From assembly GCA_946404845.1 (NCBI GenBank), contig CAMJFD010000002.1, positions 1-42,876 of the forward strand: DNA of 42,876 nt, written 5' to 3'. The stretch is from an uncultured Butyrivibrio sp. GTDB taxonomy: Bacteria; Bacillota; Clostridia; Lachnospirales; Lachnospiraceae. Shown piece after piece: positions 9,260 through 27,612 of the stretch; position 1 is the first letter of the stretch; each line of letters begins with the position of its first letter. Position numbers and translations under genes: made by a program. The notes beneath the pieces were generated by a model. The model had not been told where the DNA came from and searched no databases. It worked only from the letters and a program-made list of their open reading frames with translations.

Positions 9260-9703
9260 ATGTCAGGTATTAATATAATTAGTTTTATTAGAGATAACGG
9301 AGAAAAAACGGTAACTATAAAGGCATATATGTATTCCTTTTATTACCGTTTTATGGTCATGCATGTACCAATGAATAAGATATATTTACGTCTTGGGCAA
9401 AAGGATCTTGAATCTCCCGTAGAAGAGAGCGAAGAAAATCTTAGAATAGCCAAATTATATGCATTTCATGTAAATAGAATAACAGAACATTTACCTTGGG
9501 ATGCAAAGTGTTTTGTAAGAGCACTTACACTTAAGAAATTACTGGGGCAGAAAAAAATTTCATGTACTATTTATCTTGGAATAAAAAAAGAAAATAATAA
9601 TCTATCTGCACATGCCTGGTTAAGATGTGGACTGTTATATTTATCAGGTGGAACAGGACATGATTATACCACTGTGGGGCGTTATGGAACTGTATTTGAG
9701 TAA
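9260..9703 (+). CDS. Lasso-peptide B2-like transglutaminase-superfamily leader peptidase
   Basis: 147 aa; 'WDAKCFVRALTLKKLLGQKKISCTIYLGIKKENNNLSAHAWLRCG' matches the Cys ... HAW pattern of the lasso B2 family (PF13471). Confidence 0.82.
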   Translation: MSGINIISFIRDNGEKTVTIKAYMYSFYYRFMVMHVPMNKIYLRLGQKDLESPVEESEENLRIAKLYAFHVNRITEHLPWDAKCFVRALTLKKLLGQKKISCTIYLGIKKENNNLSAHAWLRCGLLYLSGGTGHDYTTVGRYGTVFE

Positions 9704-10043: not shown

Positions 10044-12371
10044 ATGAGAGAGACTAGGCAGTGCTTTAAGAGGAATGTGAAAGGTTTTATTGCGGGAATG
10101 GCATTTATATTTATTGGATTACTATTGATGCCACAGACATCTGTTAACAGTATAGCAGCTACTGATGAGGCTAAGGCTATTGTTAAGGAAGAACTTAAGG
10201 AGATGGTCCTTACTGCAGATGAGACTCACCACGACGTTTTAAAGTATAAGCTAACATGGAAAGAGTTATATGCAATATGGACAGATTTAGAAACGGGAGA
10301 CTGTTATGATGCAGTTAATTGTTATGATACAATTGCCATACAGACAACTAGATCAGGTAATTATATAAGTACAATTTACTTATATATGCAATTTGGATCT
10401 TCTTTTGAAGAGAACTTTGCTACCTTTAATGCCAAGACACAGGAAATCCTTAGTGGTTTACAGTCTGGTATGACAGATGCTGATAAAGCTCTGTATATTC
10501 ATGATGAAATCGACAAAATCACAAGTTATAAAAATATCGGATATGCATCCTATCATGCATGTGGACCACTTGTATATGGTCAGGCGATGTGTGAAGGCTA
10601 TGCAAATGCATATATCTATCTTCTGTCTAAGGCCGGAATTACAGCATACGAAGGCGGAAGCAACAGCATGAATCATGCATGGGTATATGTAAAACTTGAT
10701 GGTGAATTCTACAATGTAGATATTACATGGGATGATACCAGAAGGACTGGATCTACTCTTAATGGAGCATTTGATCATAAATATTTCCTGAGAACAGATT
10801 CAGAATTTACGTCTATGAATCATTACAGTTTCTACTGTATTGGTCATGATGATGTAACAGCTACATCATCTAAGTATAGTAACAGCTTTATACATAGTGT
10901 TGCAGGTTCTCTGTATTACTATGACGGATACTGGTATTATGCAGACGGCTCTTCAGTTAAATGTGCAACACTTACTGATTCTACAGGTAATGAAGTATTT
11001 ACAGCAAGTGGTAATGTGCAGCTTGTAAGTATTACAGATGGAATTATAAGTTATAAGGTAGGCAGCACAGACTACACATACAATCTTGTAATGGGATCAA
11101 ATGAAAAGACAGAAGAAGCTACAGTAGAAGAGCAGACAATAAATGCAAATATCGAAGAGTCTGCAACATCTGATTCTGCTACAACTGAAACTTCAACAAA
11201 TACAGCTGTAACTACTACAGAGACAACTGCTAAATATTATCTTGTAAAAGAAGGCGGAAGTCGTACAAATTATAAAGCAAGTAACTATATTAGCCTTGGT
11301 GCAGGAACTATCAAGGAAGCTGTTAAAATACAAAATGATAGTGATGCTATAGAGGCAAATCTTGGGACAGTACCTGACTATTCATCTTATGTAACAGAAA
11401 ATAATTATATTGAATGGTATTCAATTAAAAAAGAAAATGATGGCTGGCATGTAGATGGACAGATTATGACAAAAGAAACTACTACTGATGATTCTACAGA
11501 AGCTGTTAGTCCGGAAAATGTAAATAATTCATCAGAAGATACTGATACAACTGAGGATGCAGACACTGAAGAAAATGCAGACACTGAAGAAGATGTAGAT
11601 ACTCAGGAAGATACATCCAAGACAGAAGATAGTGAAAAAGAAGATACCACAAGTACAACAACTAATACATCCACAAATACATCAACTAGCACATCAACAA
11701 CTACTACAGGTATTACAGCTAAGTATTATTTGGTAAAAGAAGGTGGAAGTCGTACAAATTATAGTTCAAGCAATTATATAAGACTTGGAAGCGGTACTAT
11801 AAAAGAAGCCATAAGAATTAAGGATAATGAAGAAGCTATACTGGCAATTCTTCTTGATATACCTGATTATTCCAAGTATGTTAAAGATGGATATCATGTT
11901 GAATGGTATTCAGTAAAAAAAGAAGCCGATGGCTGGCATGTAGATGGTGAGATAATAAAAGATGAGATTGTAGAAGAAGTTGAAGAGGAAGAAGTAGAGG
12001 AAGAAGTAGAAGAAGTAGTAGAAACAGTAGTAGAAGCGACAAATGAAACTACAGAGGAAGCTACAGAAGAAAATACAGAAGCGACAGAAACTGAAACTAC
12101 AGAAATTGATTTCTCAACATGTACAGTAGCTAAGTTCTATCTTGCAAAAGGTAGCAGAACTAATTACTCTGCAAGCAATTATATAAGTCTTGGAAATGGC
12201 TATATTGTAGAAGCTGTGAAGATACAAAATGATGAGGAAGCCATCATAGCAAATCTCGCACAGATACCTGATTATTCAAGTTATCTTACAGAGAATCAGC
12301 GAGTAGAATGGTATTCTATCAAAAAAGAAGCTGATGGCTGGCACGTAGACGGCCAGATAGTAAGCGAATAA
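10044..12371 (+). CDS. Secreted transglutaminase-like protein with three C-terminal repeats and Thr/Glu-rich linkers
   Basis: Signal peptide 'GFIAGMAFIFIGLLLMPQTSVNSIAA'; transglutaminase core 'AMCEGYANAYIYLLSKAGITAYEGGSNSMNHAWVYVKLDGEFYNVDITWDD' (C/H/D triad); three 'AK(Y/F)YL..KEGGSRTNYxASNYI.LG.G.I.EA.....WYS.KKE.DGWHVDG' units. Confidence 0.87.
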   Translation: MRETRQCFKRNVKGFIAGMAFIFIGLLLMPQTSVNSIAATDEAKAIVKEELKEMVLTADETHHDVLKYKLTWKELYAIWTDLETGDCYDAVNCYDTIAIQTTRSGNYISTIYLYMQFGSSFEENFATFNAKTQEILSGLQSGMTDADKALYIHDEIDKITSYKNIGYASYHACGPLVYGQAMCEGYANAYIYLLSKAGITAYEGGSNSMNHAWVYVKLDGEFYNVDITWDDTRRTGSTLNGAFDHKYFLRTDSEFTSMNHYSFYCIGHDDVTATSSKYSNSFIHSVAGSLYYYDGYWYYADGSSVKCATLTDSTGNEVFTASGNVQLVSITDGIISYKVGSTDYTYNLVMGSNEKTEEATVEEQTINANIEESATSDSATTETSTNTAVTTTETTAKYYLVKEGGSRTNYKASNYISLGAGTIKEAVKIQNDSDAIEANLGTVPDYSSYVTENNYIEWYSIKKENDGWHVDGQIMTKETTTDDSTEAVSPENVNNSSEDTDTTEDADTEENADTEEDVDTQEDTSKTEDSEKEDTTSTTTNTSTNTSTSTSTTTTGITAKYYLVKEGGSRTNYSSSNYIRLGSGTIKEAIRIKDNEEAILAILLDIPDYSKYVKDGYHVEWYSVKKEADGWHVDGEIIKDEIVEEVEEEEVEEEVEEVVETVVEATNETTEEATEENTEATETETTEIDFSTCTVAKFYLAKGSRTNYSASNYISLGNGYIVEAVKIQNDEEAIIANLAQIPDYSSYLTENQRVEWYSIKKEADGWHVDGQIVSE
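11229..11465 (+). repeat. C-terminal protein repeat unit 1
   Basis: Encodes AKYYLVKEGGSRTNYKASNYISLGAGTIKEAVKIQ...WYSIKKENDGWHVDGQI. Confidence 0.8.
11718..11954 (+). repeat. C-terminal protein repeat unit 2
   Basis: Encodes AKYYLVKEGGSRTNYSSSNYIRLGSGTIKEAIRIK...WYSVKKEADGWHVDGEI. Confidence 0.8.
12129..12359 (+). repeat. C-terminal protein repeat unit 3
   Basis: Encodes AKFYLAKGSRTNYSASNYISLGNGYIVEAVKIQ...WYSIKKEADGWHVDGQI. Confidence 0.8.
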
Positions 12372-12500: not shown

Positions 12501-14435
12501 TTGGTTGGAGGGTTTATGTCAGCAATATATGGAGCAATTGATTTTGCAGGTCGTAGTATATCTGATGCAGAAATAGATATTTTAAAAAAGCCTTTTGAAA
12601 GATGCAGAATTGATAAATACACAGATAGAATTGATAGAAACGTATACATGGGATGCGGAAATCAATTCATTACAAAAGAATCAAGATTAGAAAAGCTGCC
12701 ATATTATGATGACAAATCTTTTTTTGATGCAGATATGATTCTGGATAACAGACAGGAAATCGCATTAGCCCTCGGGATAAATAATACAGAAATAGAATCT
12801 CATCCAGATGCAGAGCTGGCCTATAAATATATACAGCTACATGGAGCAGATGGACTTAATGATCTTCTGGGTGCATATGCGTTTGTATATTATAACAGAG
12901 ATAATAACAGACTTATGCTGACAGTAGATGCTGTTGGTAATAGATGTATTTATTATCGAATAGTCGGAACCACCTTTTATTATTCATCACTTATAGAATC
13001 ACTAGAAAATATCGCACCTTCTACTATCAACAACAGATGGATGTCAGACTATATAGCCATGGACTCGCTTATAATGATTGATGAATTGGAAGAGACTCCA
13101 ATAGCAGAAGTTAAGCGAGTTGCACCGGCATATTATGTAACATATGATGGCAACAATATTAATGCAATTCGTTACTGGGATGTTATAAGAGATAAAGGGG
13201 TAAGTAGTCTTAGATATAAGACAGATGATGAGTATAGAGAAGAATTTCGTAAACTGTTTTTTGATGCAGTTAAATGCGTACTTAGATCAGAAGATAAGAC
13301 ATCTATATTATTAAGTGGTGGATATGATTCCACAGCAGTAGCAGCAGTAGCAGCTCCTGAACTTGCAAAGCGTGGTCATAAATTATATTCATATACGTCA
13401 GTTCCACTTAAGGGGCTTGATACAGAGAGCAGAAATGGTGCATCTGTAGACGAATCACAGGATGTTCTTAAGACAAAAGAAATATATCCTAATATTGAAT
13501 GTGATTTTATGGATCTTAAGGATATAAAACTATGGAAAGACAGATCCAATATAATGAAAACACTTGAGATGCCATATAAGTCAATTCAGAATCTGTTATG
13601 GGTAAAACAGGCATATGTAAATTCTATGAATATAAATTCAAGAATATTGCTTATGGGTGAAATGGGTAACACGACAATTTCATATGGCAATTACAAACTG
13701 TATGTATATGATTTATTAAGGCACGGACATATAATTAAGATATTTACTGATACAAGAGCTTTTTGTCATAAAAATGGTTATGATACCAAATATTTTTTGA
13801 AATGCTTTTGGAAAGATGTATTTACCAGGAATGTAGTAAAAAGAGATCAATTATATGGTGATTCTTATGTTAATAAAAAGACTATAGAAAAATATGGAGT
13901 ATTTGAAAGACTCAGTGCTAATGAAAACGGTTATAACAAAGCAGGAAAAAGCTATCTGTCAGAGAGAAAACTTATAAATGAACTGTTTGCATTTAGACAA
14001 ATAGGTGAGCTAAATACTAAGCTGTCTCTTGAAACAGGTGTAATAATGCGAGATCCTACTAAGGATAAAAGAATTGTAGAATTCTGCATGAGGCTGCCAA
14101 TTAAAATATTCCAGAATGGTGCTGAGTGGAGGAGGCTCGTTAGTATATATCTTAAAGATATCATGCCGGAACATGTTCTTAAATCCAGTTTCAAAGGAAT
14201 GCAGAGTGCAGATTTTAAGAGCAGGATGGCTATGGAGATAGAAGACTTTAAAAATGATGCAAAAGAGCTTATAAAAAAAGCAGATAAAAACCCGAATCTT
14301 AAGAAAATAATTGACGTAAAAAGGCTTGAAAATGACATAGAAAACATAAGTGATTTTGGGAAACTAAATTCATTTGAGGTTAATAGATTGGTATATACTA
14401 TAGTATTTGTTGAATACTACTTAAATAAATATTAA
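12501..14435 (+). CDS. Asparagine-synthase-like lasso peptide macrolactam cyclase (C protein)
   Basis: N-terminal Ntn-like domain 'MSAIYGAIDFAGRSIS...LGAYAFVYYNRDNNRLMLTVDAVGNRCIYY' with Ser instead of catalytic Cys2; PP-loop 'SILLSGGYDSTAVAAVAAPELAKRGHKLYSYTSVP'. A RiPP precursor lies immediately downstream. Upstream in-frame start may be at 12516 (MSAIYG). Confidence 0.82.
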   Translation: MVGGFMSAIYGAIDFAGRSISDAEIDILKKPFERCRIDKYTDRIDRNVYMGCGNQFITKESRLEKLPYYDDKSFFDADMILDNRQEIALALGINNTEIESHPDAELAYKYIQLHGADGLNDLLGAYAFVYYNRDNNRLMLTVDAVGNRCIYYRIVGTTFYYSSLIESLENIAPSTINNRWMSDYIAMDSLIMIDELEETPIAEVKRVAPAYYVTYDGNNINAIRYWDVIRDKGVSSLRYKTDDEYREEFRKLFFDAVKCVLRSEDKTSILLSGGYDSTAVAAVAAPELAKRGHKLYSYTSVPLKGLDTESRNGASVDESQDVLKTKEIYPNIECDFMDLKDIKLWKDRSNIMKTLEMPYKSIQNLLWVKQAYVNSMNINSRILLMGEMGNTTISYGNYKLYVYDLLRHGHIIKIFTDTRAFCHKNGYDTKYFLKCFWKDVFTRNVVKRDQLYGDSYVNKKTIEKYGVFERLSANENGYNKAGKSYLSERKLINELFAFRQIGELNTKLSLETGVIMRDPTKDKRIVEFCMRLPIKIFQNGAEWRRLVSIYLKDIMPEHVLKSSFKGMQSADFKSRMAMEIEDFKNDAKELIKKADKNPNLKKIIDVKRLENDIENISDFGKLNSFEVNRLVYTIVFVEYYLNKY

Positions 14436-14527: not shown

Positions 14528-14674
14528 ATGAAGAAGTGGAATGCACCAGAAATGGAAGAACTATTAATCAACGCTACAGCAAATGGTGCTGAGAAGAGTA
14601 ATGATTTTGATGGAGAATGGCAGCAGATTGATGGTAAGTGGTATTTACCAGGTTCTGGAAAGGCTAGTAACTAA
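14528..14674 (+). CDS. Candidate lasso-type RiPP precursor peptide (48 aa; not in the ORF track)
   Basis: RBS AAAAAGGAG upstream; translates MKKWNAPEMEELLINATANGAEKSNDFDGEWQQIDGKWYLPGSGKASN*. Leader 'WNAPEM' resembles the YxxPxL B1-recognition motif; Thr17 lies 10 residues after the Pro; small size; adjacent to the cyclase; followed by its own terminator. Confidence 0.78.
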   Translation: MKKWNAPEMEELLINATANGAEKSNDFDGEWQQIDGKWYLPGSGKASN

Positions 14675-15784: not shown

Positions 15785-16702
15785 ATGTATAAATATCGTG
15801 AATTCGGTTTTAATATAGAGTCATTTAAAGAAATATTAGAGGCACCTGTAGCAGATTTTGAAGGCACAGCTGATGTAGTAATACATGAAGAAGTTTTTTC
15901 CGAGGAACATCAAAAACTCTTTGATGGAATGAAAGATGAAATCAATCAGATGACGAGTGTTTCCAAAGATGAGATTATAATTGCTCATAAAGATTACGGT
16001 ATATTTGCATTTAGAAATGGAAACAGTATAGGATGTCAGCTTCTTGATACATGTACTACAGAGAGATTTACTATTTTTATGAACTGTTTTGCCATTGCAC
16101 ATTTGATGATACAGAGGAGAGAAGTGGCTATTCATGGAAGCGGATTAGAATATAAAGGTAAGGGTATTATTATATCTGGAGTCAGCGGAGCGGGCAAATC
16201 ATCTATAGCAGAAGAACTGCTTGGAAGAGGCTGCGGATTTCTGTCAGATGATCTTATTAGAATACTGCCTCAGGATAATGTGAATTATATATGCCCTGCA
16301 AATCCAGAGAGAAAGCTGTGCATAGATACTGCAGAAAAATACAATTATGATGCATCAAAGCTCAGAAGAGTTATAGATGAAGATAGAGAGAAGTATTATC
16401 TTACTGAGAATGACAAATATGTAGATAAACTAATAAAAGCAGAGCTATTCATAATACTTGATGTTGCTGATATTCCTGAAGTTGAGGTTCAGGAGATTAC
16501 AGGCGGAGATAAGATCAAACAGATTATGGAATGCCTGTTTAGGCTTAGTACTTATATCAGATTTGGGCAGGAGCCTGCATTATTTATGAAGATAATGAGT
16601 CTTGCAAATCAGATACATATGTATAGAATAATTAGACCGTCAAATGGTGATACTATTTCTCAGAGAGCGGACATTATTCTTGATACACTTGAGCATATCT
16701 GA
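15785..16702 (+). CDS. HPr kinase/phosphorylase-like protein (lasso K-type), copy 1
   Basis: Walker A 'GVSGAGKSSIAEELLGRGCGFLSDDLIRI' preceded by 'REVAIHGSGLEYKGKGIIIS', typical of HprK-like proteins in RiPP clusters. Confidence 0.78.
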   Translation: MYKYREFGFNIESFKEILEAPVADFEGTADVVIHEEVFSEEHQKLFDGMKDEINQMTSVSKDEIIIAHKDYGIFAFRNGNSIGCQLLDTCTTERFTIFMNCFAIAHLMIQRREVAIHGSGLEYKGKGIIISGVSGAGKSSIAEELLGRGCGFLSDDLIRILPQDNVNYICPANPERKLCIDTAEKYNYDASKLRRVIDEDREKYYLTENDKYVDKLIKAELFIILDVADIPEVEVQEITGGDKIKQIMECLFRLSTYIRFGQEPALFMKIMSLANQIHMYRIIRPSNGDTISQRADIILDTLEHI

Positions 16703-16750
16703 TAACATTATTATGGCTTTGAGGGGATATTTATTCAAAGGATAAAATAT

Positions 16751-18064
16751 ATGCAGGAAGTTAATAGTAATAATTATTGGGATAGCAAATCAATAGAGAT
16801 ATTCTTAGGGCTTATTGGAGCATCTATAAATCCAGATAATATAGATGGCGCAGTTAAGAACCTTGATATAAAAAGCATCGATTGGAAAGAGGTATTTGAG
16901 GCTTCCAGAATAAATGGAACAAATGCATTGATGCTACCTGTAATTCAATATATACAGGAACAATACAATATAATAGATGATGATATTTATGATATGTGGA
17001 AGCTTACAACCAGAGGAATTATGGTATATGAACTTCCTAAATATACAGCAATTCGCAGAATTGTAAATGCGGCAGGAGACAAGAATATTCCTATAGTCTT
17101 TTTTAAGGGCATGATTCTGGCTGATCTGTATCCTAATTATCTCTATAGATCCAGTTGTGATTCAGATATATATGTGGATAAAAAAGATATAAAGGCTTTT
17201 GAGCAGCTGTTGCAAGAGCTTGGATATAAAAAGAAAGTTTCATCATCCAAGGAAGAAGTTCAGGTATATGAAAATAGTGATGCAACACATATGGTAGAAG
17301 CTCATACCTGTCTGTGGGAAGATTATAAGGGACCTAGGATGAATATTCTAGAAGGTCTTGGACTTACAGATGCAGATACATTTATCAATATGAATGCCTG
17401 TGGAATAGATATCACAACACTTGGACATGAGGAGCATCTTATATATCAGCTGTTCCATATAATTAAGCATTTTAGCCTTAATGGAATTGGAGTTAAGTAT
17501 CTGATAGATATAACATTATTTGTTAACAGATATTCGAGTCAAATAGATGCAAGGGACTTTTGGGACAAGATTGACAGACTTGGATATACCAAGTTTGCAG
17601 AATACTTTTTCTATATATGCCATAAATATCTAGGAATGACAGATGATATTTACGCTTATAGAAATCCTGTAATAGGTGATGATATCTTAAACTTTATAGT
17701 TGATCTTATAAGCGTTGGTAACATCAATGAAAGAGAAGCTGGATGGCAGATAATGGGAGCCATGGAAGCGTATTTTACAGGTAATGAGCGCATATCTGAT
17801 TCTAGATTCAAGAGGAAGATGCAGATGATATTTCCATCAGTAAAGGCTCTTCCAAAGGTATATGATTATGCCAAAAAGTATCCGGTATTATTGCCTGTTG
17901 CCTGGTTACACAGGGATATTAAATTTATAATCAAAAAGATAACTCAAAAAGATAATGTTTATGGTGTTACAGAAAAAATTGATGTGGCTGAGAACAGACT
18001 ATATCTCATCAAGCATCTGGGACTTGCAGATGCAATAAAAGATGAATGCAGAGATGATGATTAA
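16751..18064 (+). CDS. Nucleotidyltransferase family protein (PF14907-type, lasso N-type), copy 1
   Basis: 'IPIVFFKGMILADLYPNYLYRSSCDSDIYVDKKDIKAFEQLLQELGY' and 'HEEHLIYQLFHIIKHFSLNGIGVKYLIDITLFVNRY' match this family. Confidence 0.8.
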   Translation: MQEVNSNNYWDSKSIEIFLGLIGASINPDNIDGAVKNLDIKSIDWKEVFEASRINGTNALMLPVIQYIQEQYNIIDDDIYDMWKLTTRGIMVYELPKYTAIRRIVNAAGDKNIPIVFFKGMILADLYPNYLYRSSCDSDIYVDKKDIKAFEQLLQELGYKKKVSSSKEEVQVYENSDATHMVEAHTCLWEDYKGPRMNILEGLGLTDADTFINMNACGIDITTLGHEEHLIYQLFHIIKHFSLNGIGVKYLIDITLFVNRYSSQIDARDFWDKIDRLGYTKFAEYFFYICHKYLGMTDDIYAYRNPVIGDDILNFIVDLISVGNINEREAGWQIMGAMEAYFTGNERISDSRFKRKMQMIFPSVKALPKVYDYAKKYPVLLPVAWLHRDIKFIIKKITQKDNVYGVTEKIDVAENRLYLIKHLGLADAIKDECRDDD

Positions 18065-19238: not shown

Positions 19239-19511
19239 TTATGCAAGTTCCACGAAATTGTTTTGCTGTAACTGATTGATAAAAGCAACAATTCCATTTA
19301 GACAAGTTTCCTCATCTACATCATATATTTTCTGCATTTTATTCAGGATATCTCCAATAGTTGTCTCTGATTGAATACACTCCCAAATATCAACTGCTGT
19401 CCCCTTCAGTAGAAAATACTTGCCTGATTCAAAATCTACTATGACTTTATCGCCAGCCATATCGGTAATATCAAGCTTTTTCAATAATCTTACCTGTGTT
19501 TCCTTATTCAT
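19239..19511 (-). CDS. PqqD family protein (lasso B1-like RiPP recognition element), copy 1
   Basis: 90 aa 'DKVIVDFESGKYFLLKGTAVDIWECIQSETTIGDILNKMQKIYDVDEETCLNGIVAFINQLQQNNFVEL' is a canonical PqqD fold pattern. Confidence 0.87.
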   Translation of the reverse strand: MNKETQVRLLKKLDITDMAGDKVIVDFESGKYFLLKGTAVDIWECIQSETTIGDILNKMQKIYDVDEETCLNGIVAFINQLQQNNFVELA

Positions 19512-19736: not shown

Positions 19737-20999
19737 TTGGAAGTAAATAAGGATATGGTAATTCAGTTTATTGAATTACAGAGAAGAGGCCTTGGTCTTA
19801 AGAAGGCGGAAGTTAATTTTGATAATTGTGACTGGGATATACTTATAAGGCATAGTTACAGAAATAAGACAACAATGCTTATTAATAATGCGGTCAATAA
19901 AGAACGCATGAATTATGATATAGATGAACATACACTTTCAGACTGGAATAATCTATCCAGACAGCTCTTTTTCAGAGGAATAAGGCAACTGTCAAGGTAT
20001 AAAGAGATTATGAAAATGCTACAGGACAATGATATTAAGCCTGTAGTGTTGAAAGGATACGCGCTTGCACAGCTATATCCTGATATAATTCAGAGGTACA
20101 GTAGCGATCTTGATATCAAATTTGAAGAGTCAGATAAAAAAAGAGTGACTCAGTTGTTCAAGAATTTTGGCCTTAAGCATGATATCGACGATAGCAAAGA
20201 AAACGTATATATTTTTTATGATGACAGTATTAGTATAGAAGCTCATTTTACATTATGGGAAGACTATGAAGGGCGTAATATTAATGTCCTTAAAAGAGAA
20301 CATTTAGATGATCCACGGACTATTATACCTGTACATCTTGGAGAGAGTGATATGCCAGATGGTTATTATGGATACACACTTGGAGTTACAGAACATTTGA
20401 TACTTCAGATGTTCCATGTTATCAAGCATTTTATTCTGGAAGGAATAGAAATTAGATATATGGTCGATCTCACACTCTTTATTAACAAATATGCCAGTGA
20501 GATTGATTTTGACAGATTCTGGAGAGTTATGTCAGATATGGAATTTGAAGAATATACTGTAATTTATTTTTCAGAATGTATTAAATTCTTTGACATGACA
20601 GAGAAGGCGTTAAATGGCAAAAAGTTCAGGCTTGCAGATGATGAATACGCTTTTTTGAATGATATGATGATGGTTGGCAAACAGAGCCTTGATGATACAT
20701 CAAGTTTTAGTATGCTTGGAATTCTGGGGCCATATGTAAATGGCGGCAAGAAACCTGCCATTGATAAAAAGGGAAGAGTTTTGGATGCTCTTTTCCCATC
20801 GGCAGAGAATATAGATAAAAAGTACGGATATTGTAAGAAATATCATTGTCTGTTGCCTGTAGCATGGGTTCACAGAGCATTTAGGACGATATTTATGAAG
20901 ATTACGAGGGGGAATAAGGTGTATGGTGCATCAGATAAGATAAAGGGTGCAGAATACAGAATCAGCATGATGCAGAACGCAGGAATGCTCAGAGAATAA
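19737..20999 (+). CDS. Nucleotidyltransferase family protein (PF14907-type, lasso N-type), copy 2
   Basis: 'IKPVVLKGYALAQLYPDIIQRYSSDLDIKFEESDKKRVTQLFKNFGL' and 'TEHLILQMFHVIKHFILEGIEIRYMVDLTLFINKY'; clear paralogue of 16751..18064. TTG start. Confidence 0.8.
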   Translation: MEVNKDMVIQFIELQRRGLGLKKAEVNFDNCDWDILIRHSYRNKTTMLINNAVNKERMNYDIDEHTLSDWNNLSRQLFFRGIRQLSRYKEIMKMLQDNDIKPVVLKGYALAQLYPDIIQRYSSDLDIKFEESDKKRVTQLFKNFGLKHDIDDSKENVYIFYDDSISIEAHFTLWEDYEGRNINVLKREHLDDPRTIIPVHLGESDMPDGYYGYTLGVTEHLILQMFHVIKHFILEGIEIRYMVDLTLFINKYASEIDFDRFWRVMSDMEFEEYTVIYFSECIKFFDMTEKALNGKKFRLADDEYAFLNDMMMVGKQSLDDTSSFSMLGILGPYVNGGKKPAIDKKGRVLDALFPSAENIDKKYGYCKKYHCLLPVAWVHRAFRTIFMKITRGNKVYGASDKIKGAEYRISMMQNAGMLRE

Positions 21000-21026: not shown

Positions 21027-22055
21027 GTGGTAGTACCAGTAGTTACAATTATTGTTCCTGTATATAATGCAGGGCAATACCTTGGAAGATGTATAGATAG
21101 CCTTTTGAACCAGACTTACAATAAATCAGACAATCTCGATATCATTGTAATTGATGATGGTTCATCAGATAATACCCAGATGGTCGGAGAAAGCTATGCT
21201 AAGGCGCATAGTAATGTTAATTATTACAGAACTGACCATGTGGGTGTATCATCTGCGAGAAATTACGGGCTTGACCTCGCCAGAGGAAAATATGTAATGT
21301 TCACAGACGGTGATGATTATGCTGAGAGAGAATATGTTGAGAAAATGGTTCATGAACTTGAAGCTGATGACAACATGATAATGTCAGTTTGTAGTTATAA
21401 CCGCATTATATGGAATAGAAGTTATAGCGTTGAACATCTCATACCATCTGGAATCCGAACATCAAGAGATTATCTTGTTGATACTCTTAAGAATCCAGGT
21501 CATCACTATTTTGGGGTTGTATGGAACAAGATATTCAGGATGGATATAATACGTGAGCTTGGGCTTAAGTTCAAGGATTATATTACACTTGGAGAAGATT
21601 TTGTTTTTGGCCTTGAATATCTAAGGCATTCAGGATATGTATCTGTAATAGATGATAAGCTCTATAATTACTGTTATGGTCATTCTGACAGTCTTTCAAG
21701 AGTATTGCAAAAAGAGATTGATGACTGCCGTGATGAAATGAATAACCGCAGACATATTTTTGAGGAATATGTCAAAAGCTTTGAGACTGAAGGTATTTAT
21801 AATAAATACGAAAAAATAATATACAGATATTGGATAGTTTTTTATAACAGGCAGTTATATTCATGTAAGCATGATTATAAGTGGAATAGCGCTGATATAA
21901 ATAATTGGATGAGCGAACTTGAAAATGAGAAGCTCATAATAGAGGCTAAAAAAATAGTATCTCCTTTTTACATAAGGAGACACTATTACTTATTTACTAT
22001 TGATCAGTCATTAAAGAAAAAAATCAAAAAGATAATACATTTATTTAGCAGGTAA
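21027..22055 (+). CDS. GT2 family glycosyltransferase
   Basis: 'VTIIVPVYNAGQYLGRCIDSLLNQTYNKSDNLDIIVIDDGSSDNTQMVGESYA' and 'YVMFTDGDDYAEREYVEKM'. GTG start. Confidence 0.9.
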   Translation: MVVPVVTIIVPVYNAGQYLGRCIDSLLNQTYNKSDNLDIIVIDDGSSDNTQMVGESYAKAHSNVNYYRTDHVGVSSARNYGLDLARGKYVMFTDGDDYAEREYVEKMVHELEADDNMIMSVCSYNRIIWNRSYSVEHLIPSGIRTSRDYLVDTLKNPGHHYFGVVWNKIFRMDIIRELGLKFKDYITLGEDFVFGLEYLRHSGYVSVIDDKLYNYCYGHSDSLSRVLQKEIDDCRDEMNNRRHIFEEYVKSFETEGIYNKYEKIIYRYWIVFYNRQLYSCKHDYKWNSADINNWMSELENEKLIIEAKKIVSPFYIRRHYYLFTIDQSLKKKIKKIIHLFSR

Positions 22056-22848
22056 CAGGGAGCTGTATGATAAATCTGGTGCCCTTATGGTGCTCGGGAT
22101 CAGATTCACAGCTGATTGTTCCGTCATGTATGGAAATGATTTTTTGGCATATAGATAATCCAAGACCTGCACCAGAATTTGAAGTAGGAGTCCTTGAAGT
22201 ATCTACCTTGTAGGAGCGGTCAAATATATGTGCAAGATCTTCATGTGATATGCCTTCTCCGTCGTCAGCAACTGTTATTATTACTTTATTACCAGCTATA
22301 GATGCTGAGAGCGTTATAGATGCGTCTGACGAAGTGTGCTTGAGCGCATTATTGAACAGATTATCAAGAACTCTGTTCATCTGCTGAGGATCTATTGATA
22401 TCAGATAGTCAAAGTTTTCTGGAACATCCAGTATCAGCTTTCGTCCATCATATTTGGAATCAGCTTCACACAAAAAGAAGAAATCTTCCAAAAATGGTCC
22501 GCAAGGAATATCCTCTTTTTTTAACATCTTATCTCCTGAGTTATCAAGTCTGGTTAATAAGAAAATATTGTTGATCATTGTCTGCAATGCATCTGTTCTT
22601 TCGTGAATAAGATGGATTGCCTTTTTTTGTTCTTCAGGTGAAATATCAAGATCAGATTCAAGATATTCAACTGCATTGTGAATAGCAGTAATAGGTGATC
22701 TTAAGTCGTGTGATATATTGGCAAATATTTCATCACGCTCTTTTATAATGCCGGCCATCTTTTGGTTTGCATCAAAAAGAGCATGAGACAGATCCTCTAC
22801 AGAAAGGGAAGGATCTGTATATTCATTTTTGATATTCTTTTCAGACAT
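22045..22848 (-). CDS. Sensor histidine kinase lacking transmembrane/sensor segments
   Basis: H-box 'FANISHDLRSPITAIHNAVEYLES', N-box 'NRVLDNLFNNALKHT', 'VADDGEGIS', 'GAGLGLSICQKII'. Confidence 0.92.
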   Translation of the reverse strand: MSEKNIKNEYTDPSLSVEDLSHALFDANQKMAGIIKERDEIFANISHDLRSPITAIHNAVEYLESDLDISPEEQKKAIHLIHERTDALQTMINNIFLLTRLDNSGDKMLKKEDIPCGPFLEDFFFLCEADSKYDGRKLILDVPENFDYLISIDPQQMNRVLDNLFNNALKHTSSDASITLSASIAGNKVIITVADDGEGISHEDLAHIFDRSYKVDTSRTPTSNSGAGLGLSICQKIISIHDGTISCESDPEHHKGTRFIIQLPVTC

Positions 22849-22874
22849 GTTGTGATTCTCCTGGTAGTAATAAG

Positions 22875-23558
22875 TTAATGAGGTATTATGAACTTATAAC
22901 CTTTTCCATAGTTTGTCTCGATACAGTTATCGAGACCTTTATAATTCTCGAGCTTTTTCCTGAGTCGGCTCGCCATAACCATGATAGAACGTCTGTCAGA
23001 TTCCTGATACACATTCCATATTTTGCGTCCAATTTCTTCAAATGTGATTATCTTATTAGGGTTTGAAACCAGATAATATAATAGCTCGTATTCTCTATTG
23101 GATAGCTGAATTTCTTCGGTCTGATTATAGTAGACCTTATGATTAGGCAGATCCAGTTTGAGCGGAGGATATGAAATTGTATTTGAGTTGGCAGAAGAGG
23201 ATCCTTTCCTGAGCTGTACAATTATTCTTGCAGATAATTCCTTAAGACTATATGGCTTAACGAGATAATCGTCAGCACCAGAGAGAAGACCAGTTACCTT
23301 GTCATCGTCACTATCCTTGCCAGTGAGGAATATAATAGGTGCTTTTGAGAACTTTCTAATCTGAGGAAGTGCTGTAAGACCATCAACATCCGGCATCATG
23401 ATATCTAAGAGGATGCAGTCTGGATGACTACTTTTAAGAGATTCCAGAGCAGGTGCAACGCTTTCAAATATCAGAACTTTATAGCCTTCTTTTTCAAAAT
23501 AGCTCTTATTTAGCTCCAGAACATCTTTATCATCATCAATTAGCATCAGTAGACTCAT
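22875..23558 (-). CDS. OmpR-family response regulator
   Basis: 'MSLLMLIDDDKDVLELNKSYFEKEGYKV', 'DCILLDIMMPDVDGL', 'APIIFLTGKDSDDDKVTGLLSGADDYLVKPY', C-terminal winged helix 'LSNREYELLYYLVSNPNKIITFEEIGRKIW'. Confidence 0.95.
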   Translation of the reverse strand: MSLLMLIDDDKDVLELNKSYFEKEGYKVLIFESVAPALESLKSSHPDCILLDIMMPDVDGLTALPQIRKFSKAPIIFLTGKDSDDDKVTGLLSGADDYLVKPYSLKELSARIIVQLRKGSSSANSNTISYPPLKLDLPNHKVYYNQTEEIQLSNREYELLYYLVSNPNKIITFEEIGRKIWNVYQESDRRSIMVMASRLRKKLENYKGLDNCIETNYGKGYKFIIPH

Positions 23559-23724
23559 ATAATTACATACTCCATTTCAAAATGAATCTTAACAAAAATG
23601 ATATTCTTTACAATACATATTTTAAAAATAAAAAAAATATGATATGGTTTCATCTTGGGTGCGAATATCTTTTGCAGATATGTACCATTATAATACAAGA
23701 ACTATAGACAGGAAAAGTAGGGTT

Positions 23725-25416
23725 ATGAAAACTAAGATAAAAAAATACATCAATAAATACAAGCAGGAAAAGAGCAGAGGACGTAATTATTTCAAGTGGC
23801 TTACGGATTATACAAAGCCATATATGTGGAAAATAATAGCTCTAATGGCTATCAGTATAGCCATGACTTATGTCAGTATTTATTATGCTATTATTTCCCA
23901 GAAACTTGTCGATCTTGCAGGTGAGGGAATTACTGATAAGAGAGTAATTATAATCTATATGTTCCTGATATTTTTCCAGCTGGGTGTTAATGCTGTGACA
24001 GATCTTGCCCTTGCAATGATCAATGAGAGATATTCATTTGGTATTAGAAAACAGGTATATGACAAGCTCCTTAGATCATCATGGCTGGGAACACAGAAGT
24101 TCCATACAGGTGATATGATGACCAGAATGACAAGTGATGCTGGTAATATCGCAAATGGTATGGTCAATGTCATTCCTAACATTATTGTACTTATGGTTCA
24201 GCTCATTTCAGTATTCATAACCTTTTATATTTATTCACCATTCCTTGCAGTATCTGCTCTGTGCCTTACACCTATGGGGCTTCTCGCTGCATATGTTCTG
24301 GGACGTAAGCTCAAGAAATTACAGGAAAATGTACTTAGGACTGAGACAGCATACAGATCATTCATACAGGAGAGTCTTGCTAATATCATGGTTGTAAAGG
24401 CTTTTTCGAATGAAGAGTCTTTTTCTGAGCAGCTTGTAAAACTGCGTGAAGAGAGATTTTTCTGGGTATGGAAAAAAAGTAAGATGAGTACTCTTACCAA
24501 TACTGTAATGATGGCAACTTTTAATATTGGTTCCATGCTGGCTTTTTTATATGCTGCTTACGGTATTTCAAAAGGCGAGATAACATTTGGTACTATGACT
24601 CTTTTCCTTACTCTTTTTAGTAAGATACAGGCGCCTATCATAAGTCTAGCAAGTCAGCTCCCTGGAGTTGTTTCTATATTTGCTTCTGCAGGACGAGTTA
24701 TGGATATTCAGGATATAGCTTATGAGAAGAGACTAGAAGAAGTAACTATGGAGGGTTCTGTTGGTGTTGAAGTAAGAGCGGCATCATTTGCATATGCAGA
24801 AGACAATGTGCTTGAGGACGTTAATTTTGAAATTAAGCCATCAGAATTTGTAGCTATAGTAGGTAAGTCGGGTATAGGTAAGACTACGCTTATAAGGCTA
24901 CTTATGAGTTTTGTGGATGCTAGAAGTGGTGATATTACATACAAGGACAACTATGGACATCAGACACCTGTAAATGCATCTGTAAGATCATTTATTTCAT
25001 ATGTACCACAAGGTAATACACTTTTTTCTGGAACAATTAGAGACAATATTCTTATGGGCAAGATGGATGCTACAGAAGATGAAATAAATGAAGCACTGGA
25101 AATGGCTGTTTGTAATGAATTTATAGGAAGACTTCCTAATGGACTAGATACAGTTATTGGAGAAAAAGGTGTGGGTCTTTCTGAAGGTCAGGCACAGCGT
25201 ATCGCAATAGCAAGAGCGCTTATCAAGAAATCTCCATTTATGATACTTGATGAAGCAACATCAGCACTTGATGAAGATACAGAGCTAGAGCTTTTAAAGA
25301 AGATTGGAAACATGAATCCAAAGCCAACATGCCTTCTAATAACTCACAGACGCAGCATACTACAGTATTGTTCAAGAGAAATCAAGATTTCTGATAAACA
25401 TGTATATGTAAGCTGA
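23725..25416 (+). CDS. ABC transporter, fused permease/ATP-binding exporter (lasso D-type candidate)
   Basis: Six-TM ABC exporter N-domain plus 'VAIVGKSGIGKTTLIRLLM', 'GLSEGQAQRIAIARALIKKSPFMILDEATSALD'. Start moved to ATG 23725 (MKTKIKKYINKYKQ); ORF-track start is 23644. Confidence 0.92.
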   Translation: MKTKIKKYINKYKQEKSRGRNYFKWLTDYTKPYMWKIIALMAISIAMTYVSIYYAIISQKLVDLAGEGITDKRVIIIYMFLIFFQLGVNAVTDLALAMINERYSFGIRKQVYDKLLRSSWLGTQKFHTGDMMTRMTSDAGNIANGMVNVIPNIIVLMVQLISVFITFYIYSPFLAVSALCLTPMGLLAAYVLGRKLKKLQENVLRTETAYRSFIQESLANIMVVKAFSNEESFSEQLVKLREERFFWVWKKSKMSTLTNTVMMATFNIGSMLAFLYAAYGISKGEITFGTMTLFLTLFSKIQAPIISLASQLPGVVSIFASAGRVMDIQDIAYEKRLEEVTMEGSVGVEVRAASFAYAEDNVLEDVNFEIKPSEFVAIVGKSGIGKTTLIRLLMSFVDARSGDITYKDNYGHQTPVNASVRSFISYVPQGNTLFSGTIRDNILMGKMDATEDEINEALEMAVCNEFIGRLPNGLDTVIGEKGVGLSEGQAQRIAIARALIKKSPFMILDEATSALDEDTELELLKKIGNMNPKPTCLLITHRRSILQYCSREIKISDKHVYVS

Positions 25417-25460: not shown

Positions 25461-26366
25461 ATGAACGAAGTATTTAAAATGAGGATTGCAGATATTGTAG
25501 TTGATGTTATTGGTAATCCAGATTATTTGCACGAAAGATACAGAGATTTTGAATGCCCTGAAAATGAAGATGCCAAAGTGAAAATGACCTTTTCTGAAGG
25601 GCCTCTTCCGCATATTCCATTTTCTTTTTCCAGGAAGTGGACTAAAATGGGAATCTTTAGGATTTACAGAAAAGGTAATACCTGGTATCAGTTTTTTCCA
25701 TATCAGAAACACCGCGGCGTAAGGCTTGTTGAAATAAGTGATAATTTTCATGATGTTACATTTTATCTGTGTGACAAGTTAGATAGCAGGTTTGTCAGAG
25801 ATTATGGAAGAGATAAATATCTTGAGAGTATGAAGGGAATACTACTCAATCTGATGCAGGAAGCCTTTTTCAATATGATTTTGTTTGAAGATGGAATGTC
25901 TATTCATTCTGCAAGCCTTATATATAATGACAGGGGTATTATATTCAGTGCACCTTCTGGAACAGGCAAGAGCACCCAGTCCAATATGTGGCATGATATG
26001 TATGGTTATGAGATTCTTGATGGTGATACTACTATTTGTAGGAATATAGATGGAAAGCTTATGATATATGGACTTCCGTGGTGCGGAACATCCAATTTAT
26101 ATGTTAATAAAAGTATCCCTTTAGATACAATTGTATTCCTGTCACAGGATAAGGAAAATCATATAATTGAGCTAAATATGATGCAGCAGATACAGTACCT
26201 GTATGCATCTTCATTTAGCGAGACATGGGATGATGAGATGGCACAGCTTAGAACAAAGGCTGTTGAGCATATATTAAATGGTGCCCAAATAGTGGGATAT
26301 GCATGCAATATGGAAAAAGAAGCAGTAGATACGTTGAGAAACTATATTGATAACAGGCTTGCATAA
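25461..26366 (+). CDS. HPr kinase-like protein (lasso K-type), copy 2
   Basis: 'MSIHSASLIYNDRGIIFSAPSGTGKSTQSNMWHDMYGYEILDGDTTICRNIDGKLMIYGLPWCGTSNLYVNKSIPLDTIVFLSQ' is typical of HprK-like/PEPCK-superfamily proteins in RiPP loci. Confidence 0.78.
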   Translation: MNEVFKMRIADIVVDVIGNPDYLHERYRDFECPENEDAKVKMTFSEGPLPHIPFSFSRKWTKMGIFRIYRKGNTWYQFFPYQKHRGVRLVEISDNFHDVTFYLCDKLDSRFVRDYGRDKYLESMKGILLNLMQEAFFNMILFEDGMSIHSASLIYNDRGIIFSAPSGTGKSTQSNMWHDMYGYEILDGDTTICRNIDGKLMIYGLPWCGTSNLYVNKSIPLDTIVFLSQDKENHIIELNMMQQIQYLYASSFSETWDDEMAQLRTKAVEHILNGAQIVGYACNMEKEAVDTLRNYIDNRLA

Positions 26367-26513: not shown

Positions 26514-26774
26514 ATGAAGAAAGTGTATGAGAAACCTGAATTAAACGAATCAATGAATGGTACACTTGAAGGCGTTTATGCATGCTATGGTTATGATTAT
26601 AACTATAGTTGCGGCGGTTATGATTACAATTATAATTGTAATCAGCAGAATGATCAGCCATCTAGTGGAACTACAACTGTAGAACAGTACAATACAAATT
26701 CAGGAAAAGAAAGTTGTTGGAGTTGGAAAATTACATTTAGCGGATGCTGGGGATGGATTATTAGATGGTTCTAA
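26514..26774 (+). CDS. Candidate RiPP precursor with YxxPxL leader, Cys-periodic Tyr-rich repeats and CWxW pair
   Basis: MKKVYEKPELNESMNGTLEGVYACYGYDYNYSCGGYDYNYNCNQQNDQPSSGTTTVEQYNTNSGKESCWSWKITFSGCWGWIIRWF; good RBS (AGGGAGAA); lies between an HprK-like and a PqqD gene. Confidence 0.72.
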   Translation: MKKVYEKPELNESMNGTLEGVYACYGYDYNYSCGGYDYNYNCNQQNDQPSSGTTTVEQYNTNSGKESCWSWKITFSGCWGWIIRWF

Positions 26775-26878: not shown

Positions 26879-27148
26879 ATGAGATTAAATCCAGAATATT
26901 CTGTTTGTGAAGTGTCAGGAAAGTCATTTCTGGTACCAACAGGATCTAAGACTATGGATGTTAATAAGATGATGGACCTTAATGGTTCTGCACTTTTTAT
27001 TATCAATGAACTCAAAAAAACAGAGCTGACTTATGAGCAGCTTCTGACTAAGATGCTGGATGAATATGATGTTGACAGAAGTGTTGCGGCTGCAGATCTT
27101 AGTGAGTTTATAGAAAAAGCAAAAATGGCAGGTATTATCATATCATGA
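26879..27148 (+). CDS. PqqD family protein (B1-like RiPP recognition element), copy 2
   Basis: 'MRLNPEYSVCEVSGKSFLVPTGSKTMDVNKMMDLNGSALFIINELKKTELTYEQLLTKMLDEYDVDRSVAAADLSEFIEKAKMAGII'. Start at ATG 26879 with AGAAAGG RBS preferred over TTG 26861. Confidence 0.87.
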   Translation: MRLNPEYSVCEVSGKSFLVPTGSKTMDVNKMMDLNGSALFIINELKKTELTYEQLLTKMLDEYDVDRSVAAADLSEFIEKAKMAGIIIS

Positions 27149-27612
27149 TGGAACAGTCAGGTAATTATGAGGATATGATACATACAGATGAATGGATGCC
27201 AATTTATCTAAAAGGTCTTGAAAATGGACAGAAGATTAAGATTGGACCATTTGGTTTTAGTATGTATCCGCTTCTGGTAGGTAATAGAGACAGTCTTGTT
27301 CTGACACAGATCGACAGACCGCTTAAGCGCTGCGATATATGTCTGTATAGAAGAGATAATGGAATATATGTTACCCATACAATACATCATATTGATGAAA
27401 ACGGCATATATTTTGTTGGTGAGAGTCAGAGAGGTATTGAGGGACCTTTAAGACAGGATCAGGTGCTGGCTGTTGCAGAGAGCTATATCAGAAGAGGCAT
27501 TGAATATTCGTGTGATAGTCCATCTTATAAGTTATTTCATGAGATTTGGATGTTACTAAGGCCAGCAAGACCATTGCTGATAAAGATATATAGAAAAATA
27601 AGAGGATTTTAG
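27145..27612 (+). CDS. S24/S26-like serine peptidase (signal-peptidase fold) associated with the RiPP module
   Basis: 'KIGPFGFSMYPLLVGNRDSLVL' (catalytic-Ser motif) followed by 'RCDICLYRRDNGIYVTHTIHHIDENGIYFVGESQ'; overlaps the PqqD stop by 4 nt. Confidence 0.78.
   Translation: MMEQSGNYEDMIHTDEWMPIYLKGLENGQKIKIGPFGFSMYPLLVGNRDSLVLTQIDRPLKRCDICLYRRDNGIYVTHTIHHIDENGIYFVGESQRGIEGPLRQDQVLAVAESYIRRGIEYSCDSPSYKLFHEIWMLLRPARPLLIKIYRKIRGF

Follow-up and report, generated by a model that had tools for sequence, protein, structure and literature searches.

A probable LPP-type RiPP precursor in a Butyrivibrio exopolysaccharide locus, beside a separate paeninodin-type lasso cluster

Linear polyphosphorylated peptides (LPPs) were described by Popov et al. 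(Nat Commun, May 2026; PMC13381572) as products of clusters that comprise a SipW-like peptidase, a discrete RRE, an HprK-like kinase, an NTP transferase and an MsbA-like exporter, are found in capsule loci, and often adjoin paeninodin-type lasso clusters. The lppAKBSDN genes of Paenibacillus alginolyticus constitute one LPP system. Three activities have been reported, all in Paenibacillus only: polyphosphorylation of Ser3 of the core, in one precursor; RRE-dependent cleavage of the leader by the Ser/His/Asp peptidase; and selectivity of the RREs, those of LPP clusters (Asn33, Asp70) preferring YxxP leaders and those of paeninodin clusters WxxP leaders (PMC13381572). The leader consensus that follows YxxP, VLxHQxIxFETxxS, is given as a sequence logo and is not stated there to be obligatory; the RREs of LPP clusters are spoken of as discrete, and Butyrivibrio, Clostridia and Lachnospiraceae go unmentioned in the main text of that report (PMC13381572).

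The window analysed here, a stretch of 42,876 nucleotides from an uncultured Butyrivibrio sp., carries at 26514-26774 a gene that probably encodes an LPP-type RiPP precursor, located in an exopolysaccharide locus beside a separate lasso cluster of the paeninodin type (Table 1). The direct basis of this reading is formed by gene content, synteny, leader conservation, RRE determinants, and the folds of the peptidase and the kinase. An initial annotation of the same DNA had proposed a RiPP-type precursor whose leader is paired with a PqqD RRE, an HprK-like kinase and an S24/S26-fold peptidase, a proposal that the present analysis supports; its description of the pathway as undescribed, however, no longer stands, since the LPP pathway was published in May 2026 (PMC13381572).

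Table 1. Features of the window, and of related loci, with the basis of each assignment
Feature	Position	Strand	Basis or remark
Lasso leader peptidase B2	9260-9703	+	NF033537, 9e-17, above cut-off
Lasso macrolactam synthetase (C)	12516-14435	+	Best NCBIfam NF033535, 2.3e-54, below curated cut-off
Conventional lasso precursor, MKKWNAPEMEELLINATAN followed by GAEKSND..., starting MKKWNAPEM (WxxP leader)	14528-14674	+	NF033524, 0.0021
HprK-like kinase no. 1 and NTP_transf_5 protein no. 1, lasso half	15785-18064	+	Domain/family matches
PqqD-like RRE no. 1 (PqqD-1, lasso B1 type)	19239-19511	-	Closest solved structure: lasso RRE PbaB1, 9X90_B, 8.9e-8
NTP_transf_5 protein no. 2 (lppN-like candidate)	19737-20999	+	PF14907, 8e-33; syntenic in 4 relatives
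Family 2 glycosyltransferase, possible decorating enzyme	21027-22055	+	Domain match; syntenic
Sensor kinase and response regulator	22045-23558	-	Syntenic in relatives
MsbA-like ABC exporter (lppD-like)	23713-25416	+	PF00664 and PF00005
HprK-like kinase no. 2 (lppK-like)	25461-26366	+	Weak NCBIfam ScmC/HprK matches; conserved SGTGKST and GD; HprK/PEPCK fold
Probable LPP-type precursor (lppA-like), 86 aa	26514-26774	+	Orthologues in 4 Butyrivibrio genomes
Precursor leader, MKKVYEKPELNESMNGTLEGVYA	26514-26582	+	Alignment of 5 orthologues
Predicted RRE-binding motif Y-x-x-P-x-L (YEKPEL)	26526-26543	+	Translation; leader alignment
Two 9-codon Cys/Tyr repeat units, 27 nt each	26583-26636	+	21/27 identical; absent in orthologues
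C68WSW ... C78WGW tail	26715-26756	+	Not conserved in orthologues
PqqD-like RRE no. 2 (PqqD-2, lppB-like)	26879-27148	+	PF05402, 2.7e-13; alignment; PDB profile search
SipW/SEC11-type serine peptidase fold (lppS-like), S39 and H78	27145-27612	+	Alignment, SEC11A match, AlphaFold2 and fold search
RRE-kinase fusions in related loci	L036:8543-9808, L037:10287-11534, L040:10810-12003, L044:10235-11398, L048:8543-9718		PF05402
Further leader subtypes in related loci	L051:15207-15476, L052:764-1006, L045:7819-8250, L049:5516-5914		
356-372 aa protein in related loci	L058:14026-15096, L062:5386-6504, L064:13683-14753		

The precursor and its cassette

Translation recovers the 86-residue product as stated earlier, with a ribosome-binding site, GGGAG, 7 nt 5' of the ATG, and confirms the leader motif (Y5-E-K-P8-E-L10), the cysteines at 24, 33, 42, 68 and 78, and the CWSW and CWGW elements. 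The near-identical 27-nt repeats of the initial annotation exist, but their similarity had been overstated, the best 23-nt stretch reaching 87%. Two successive 9-residue Cys spacings occur in 0.5% of shuffled cores, which places the pattern above chance inside the window protein; it is seen in none of the four Butyrivibrio orthologues, and is thus a lineage-specific trait of the window precursor and no feature of the family. Both the repeat and the CWxW pair, being missing from the orthologues, were dropped as functional signatures.

A comparison of the whole precursor with 85,462 species genomes detected no relative because the core is too variable, and the peptidase was therefore used as anchor. 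Among the five Butyrivibrio precursors found in this way, leaders share a mean identity of 84% and cores 28%, against 19% for shuffled cores; each core holds 4-5 Cys and consists of C/Y/W/G/P/N to an extent of 45-68%. Y5 and P8 are invariant in 19 aligned leaders. The leader probably ends after A23, a position suggested by the small-residue rule and by conservation, with G20 as an alternative from the spacing to LppA and E19 as another if the precursor were a lasso substrate. If cleavage after A23 is assumed, Ser is present at core position 3 in 0/5 Butyrivibrio cores. The remainder of the LPP leader consensus is not found in the window leader (ELNESMNGTLEGVYAC), where the sole agreement is Glu at Tyr+14.

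The precursor has a YxxP leader, and the genes that surround it correspond to the LPP set and include a SipW-like Ser/His peptidase, a discrete RRE with Asn and Asp, an HprK-like kinase, an NTP transferase and an MsbA-like transporter. The model of kinase no. 2 (pLDDT 91.8) retrieved HprK and PEPCK in fold searches, with modest TM-scores, and its motifs are intact, so that a target should exist. N35 and D73 of PqqD-2, which are equivalent to N33 and D70 of LppB, are kept in all four orthologues; as a single sequence PqqD-2 found no meaningful match among PDB sequences, and the structural assignment required a profile. PqqD-1 has K36 and G73 where LPP RREs have Asn and Asp, and the recognition determinants thus agree with the leaders, N35/D73 going with YEKP and K36/G73 with WNAP.

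The window peptidase alone has no family match. An alignment of 24 members matches the signal peptidases SEC11A and SEC11C, half of the members match Peptidase_S24, and the AlphaFold2 model (pLDDT 88.7) adopts a LexA/UmuD/signal-peptidase fold, with support at the level of fold only, no match falling below an E-value of 0.001. S39 and H78 are invariant in the 24 homologues and are spaced exactly as S29 and H68 of LppS. The acid that follows the catalytic His is GE93 in the Butyrivibrio peptidases and GD in relatives, and E99 is invariant; the third catalytic residue of LppS is D93. It is these RRE determinants and the peptidase spacing, both as in LPP systems, that lead to the interpretation of the window as a pair formed by an LPP-type and a lasso cluster. 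The window cassette contains no radical SAM gene, as had been noted initially, and such a partner was discarded as a candidate; a radical-SAM-like gene (CxxxCxxC) lies between PqqD and precursor in one LPP-type locus only (L035:7151-8335).

The neighbouring lasso cluster and distribution in relatives

The window also holds a separate lasso cluster, overlooked in the initial annotation, whose cyclase, B2 peptidase, conventional lasso precursor and second PqqD lie 7-17 kb upstream of the 26514 precursor. With its WxxP leader, B1, B2, C and HprK, the 14528 cluster is of the paeninodin type; its precursor is close to the predicted lasA of Butyrivibrio NC3005 (PMC7533575), and relative G200 carries the lasso precursor given for B. 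fibrisolvens DSM 3071 in the same survey. Between B2 and cyclase, 10044-12371 encodes a large secreted protein in which a transglutaminase-like domain is combined with Glu/Thr-rich repeats.

The peptidase is present in five of 79 genomes of the genus, the window genome included, and a strong-score leader was found in all five of these against none of the 74 peptidase-negative genomes (Fisher p 4e-8). Leader conservation, whose absence the initial annotation had taken as grounds for abandoning its proposal, is seen in the orthologues, which within these 79 genomes are confined to the peptidase-bearing five. Gene order is common to the five loci, running from NTP transferase through glycosyltransferase, two-component pair, ABC transporter, kinase, precursor, PqqD and peptidase to PssD and PssE, and a lasso set accompanies the cassette in each.

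Lachnospiraceae of other genera also carry this peptidase together with the kinase, the exporter and the NTP transferase, and within 20 kb of these cassettes nothing matched the lasso B2 or the cyclase of the window. These cassettes adjoin one to three small ORFs with leaders of the form Y-x-[KA]-P...EGV[YF]A[AS]SG, the related precursors being 80-160 aa in length; Ser stands two residues after VYA in 14/14 EGVYAASG leaders versus 0/5 Butyrivibrio precursors. A model built from those 14 leaders alone scores the Butyrivibrio leaders weakly, all five ranking 15-22 of 6190 ORFs. In a family sample the peptidase occurs in 12/13 leader-positive genomes and in 30/200 overall (p 2e-10), a co-occurrence that is partly circular, given that most leader seeds came from peptidase loci; at two unseeded loci, in G043 and G025:C33, the pattern of precursors beside kinase and ABC genes is repeated. 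A search of literature text for 'EGVYAASG' returned no mention.

A number of variations were observed in these relatives. Several Lachnospiraceae LPP-type loci encode an HprK-like kinase that begins with a fused RRE domain (PF05402, above cut-off), and near such kinases there are leader subtypes of the forms YxKPxL...FxLSQxIASC and ...ANEYVAAC, in which a small residue or Cys is again preceded by Ala. The closest cassette outside the genus (L034, genome G047) has no detected adjacent precursor, and a lone precursor with a Cys/Pro-rich core, YNKPIISENEELFFEPVLAAYSNPFDPTC..., is located on another contig of that genome (L074:622-867, G047:C8). Three relatives encode a 356-372 aa protein (MELSGEKLNKAA...) 5' of the ABC gene, absent at the window position. 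Genome G146, which is 68% complete, has EGVFMASG-type leaders on contigs C2 and C7 (L076, L078), with no peptidase homologue detected.

Competing readings of the precursor

The possibility that the gene is a chance ORF or a non-expressed relic is hardly credible: promoter-like or terminator-like sites are not above chance and no Pfam or NCBIfam model matches the precursors, but the gene has a ribosome-binding site, and five orthologues in the same place, with leader and frame conserved, already contradict such a reading. It is also improbable that the product is an unmodified small surface or matrix protein, rich in Cys and aromatic residues, for which leader and peptidase would serve as an export signal and which would form disulfides and associate with the capsule without any product of the kinase. 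The location in an exopolysaccharide locus, the low-complexity C/Y/W/G/P/N cores and the protein-like precursors of 80-160 aa in other genera are consistent with such a protein, whereas the kinase, RRE and NTP transferase are syntenic with intact motifs, and the combination of a conserved leader with a diverging core is RiPP-like.

A role as second substrate of the lasso enzymes would involve cleavage between E19 and G20 and a G1-D9 ring (G20 to D28), in a lasso or branched-cyclic product. The remark in the initial annotation that no G1 to D/E 7-9 pattern is present was not quite right, as G20 and D28 form such a pair. With G20 taken as residue 1, D/E is found at 7-9 in four of the five orthologues (p about 0.009 versus shuffled cores), T17 occupies position -3, matching the Thr of the local lasso leaders (NATAN before G), and each of the five genomes has cyclase and B2 in the locus. 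These enzymes, however, lie 12-17 kb upstream, next to another precursor, the regular lasso precursor that adjoins the cyclase; the orthologue in G214 lacks an acceptor, and D at position 8 also occurs in 5/14 EGVYAASG relatives, in loci with no detected cyclase. Because the 26514 leader is YxxP and not WxxP, and because the precursor adjoins a dedicated LPP-type RRE and a serine peptidase, the lasso reading is weaker than the LPP reading, and is considered unlikely.

Proposed pathway and comparison with known systems

In the LPP-type reading, PqqD-2 would bind the YEKPEL leader, reject the WNAP lasso leader and hand the precursor to two enzymes: the HprK-like kinase would phosphorylate the linear core, and the SipW-like Ser/His peptidase would cut off the leader, most likely after VYA23, to yield a 63-residue Cys/aromatic-rich core with an N-terminal Cys. 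The NTP transferase and the glycosyltransferase may decorate this core, the MsbA-like transporter would export the product, and disulfides could then form outside the cell. By analogy with Paenibacillus, we infer that phosphorylation, RRE-dependent cleavage and RRE selectivity take place in Butyrivibrio; the cleavage site, the phosphorylated residue and the extracellular disulfides are likewise predicted. The window system probably works like an LPP system; within the class it is ranked as a divergent variant, since its precursor lacks two features of the studied LPP example. It may tentatively be suggested, although the idea is more doubtful than the class assignment, that in a Lachnospiraceae LPP branch the kinase and its partners act on a Cys/aromatic-rich core at some site that is not Ser3, giving a product chemically unlike linear Ser-polyphosphate (such as a disulfide peptide that bears phosphate or sugar and is tied to exopolysaccharide), or that LPP and lasso enzymes share this precursor.

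With the kinase retained in a natural subtype that lacks the known phosphosite, the question of kinase target and product becomes directly testable. In addition, the rule by which two RREs discriminate between Tyr and Trp leaders is extended to rumen Butyrivibrio, and lasso loci of the kind surveyed in PMC7533575 are seen, in five genomes, to carry a second RiPP alongside.

Among known systems, SynChlorMet (ScmC/ScmD) offers a resemblance only: the best NCBIfam match of kinase no. 2 is ScmC (7.7e-6, far below cut-off) and a PqqD partner is present, but the window cassette shows no radical SAM. Paeninodin-type lasso peptides, including the Butyrivibrio lasA products (PMC7533575), share HprK, NTP transferase and discrete RRE and are represented by the separate cluster in the window; theirs is a WxxP leader with B2 and cyclase, whereas the 26514 precursor sits with another RRE and peptidase and has one orthologue without ring acceptor. 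The EGVYAASG precursors of other Lachnospiraceae have the Y-x-[KA]-P ... EGV[YF]A leader and lie beside the corresponding genes for peptidase, kinase, exporter and NTP transferase, yet differ in their longer, protein-like cores, in the Ser conserved after VYA, and in the fusion of RRE to kinase at several loci. With LPP systems, finally, the window has in common the gene set, the YxxP leader, the RRE residues, the Ser/His peptidase, the polysaccharide locus and the adjoining lasso cluster; it departs from them in a leader that ends in LEGVYA where that of LPPs has FET, in a Cys/aromatic-rich core without Ser3, and in its host, a member of the Lachnospiraceae.
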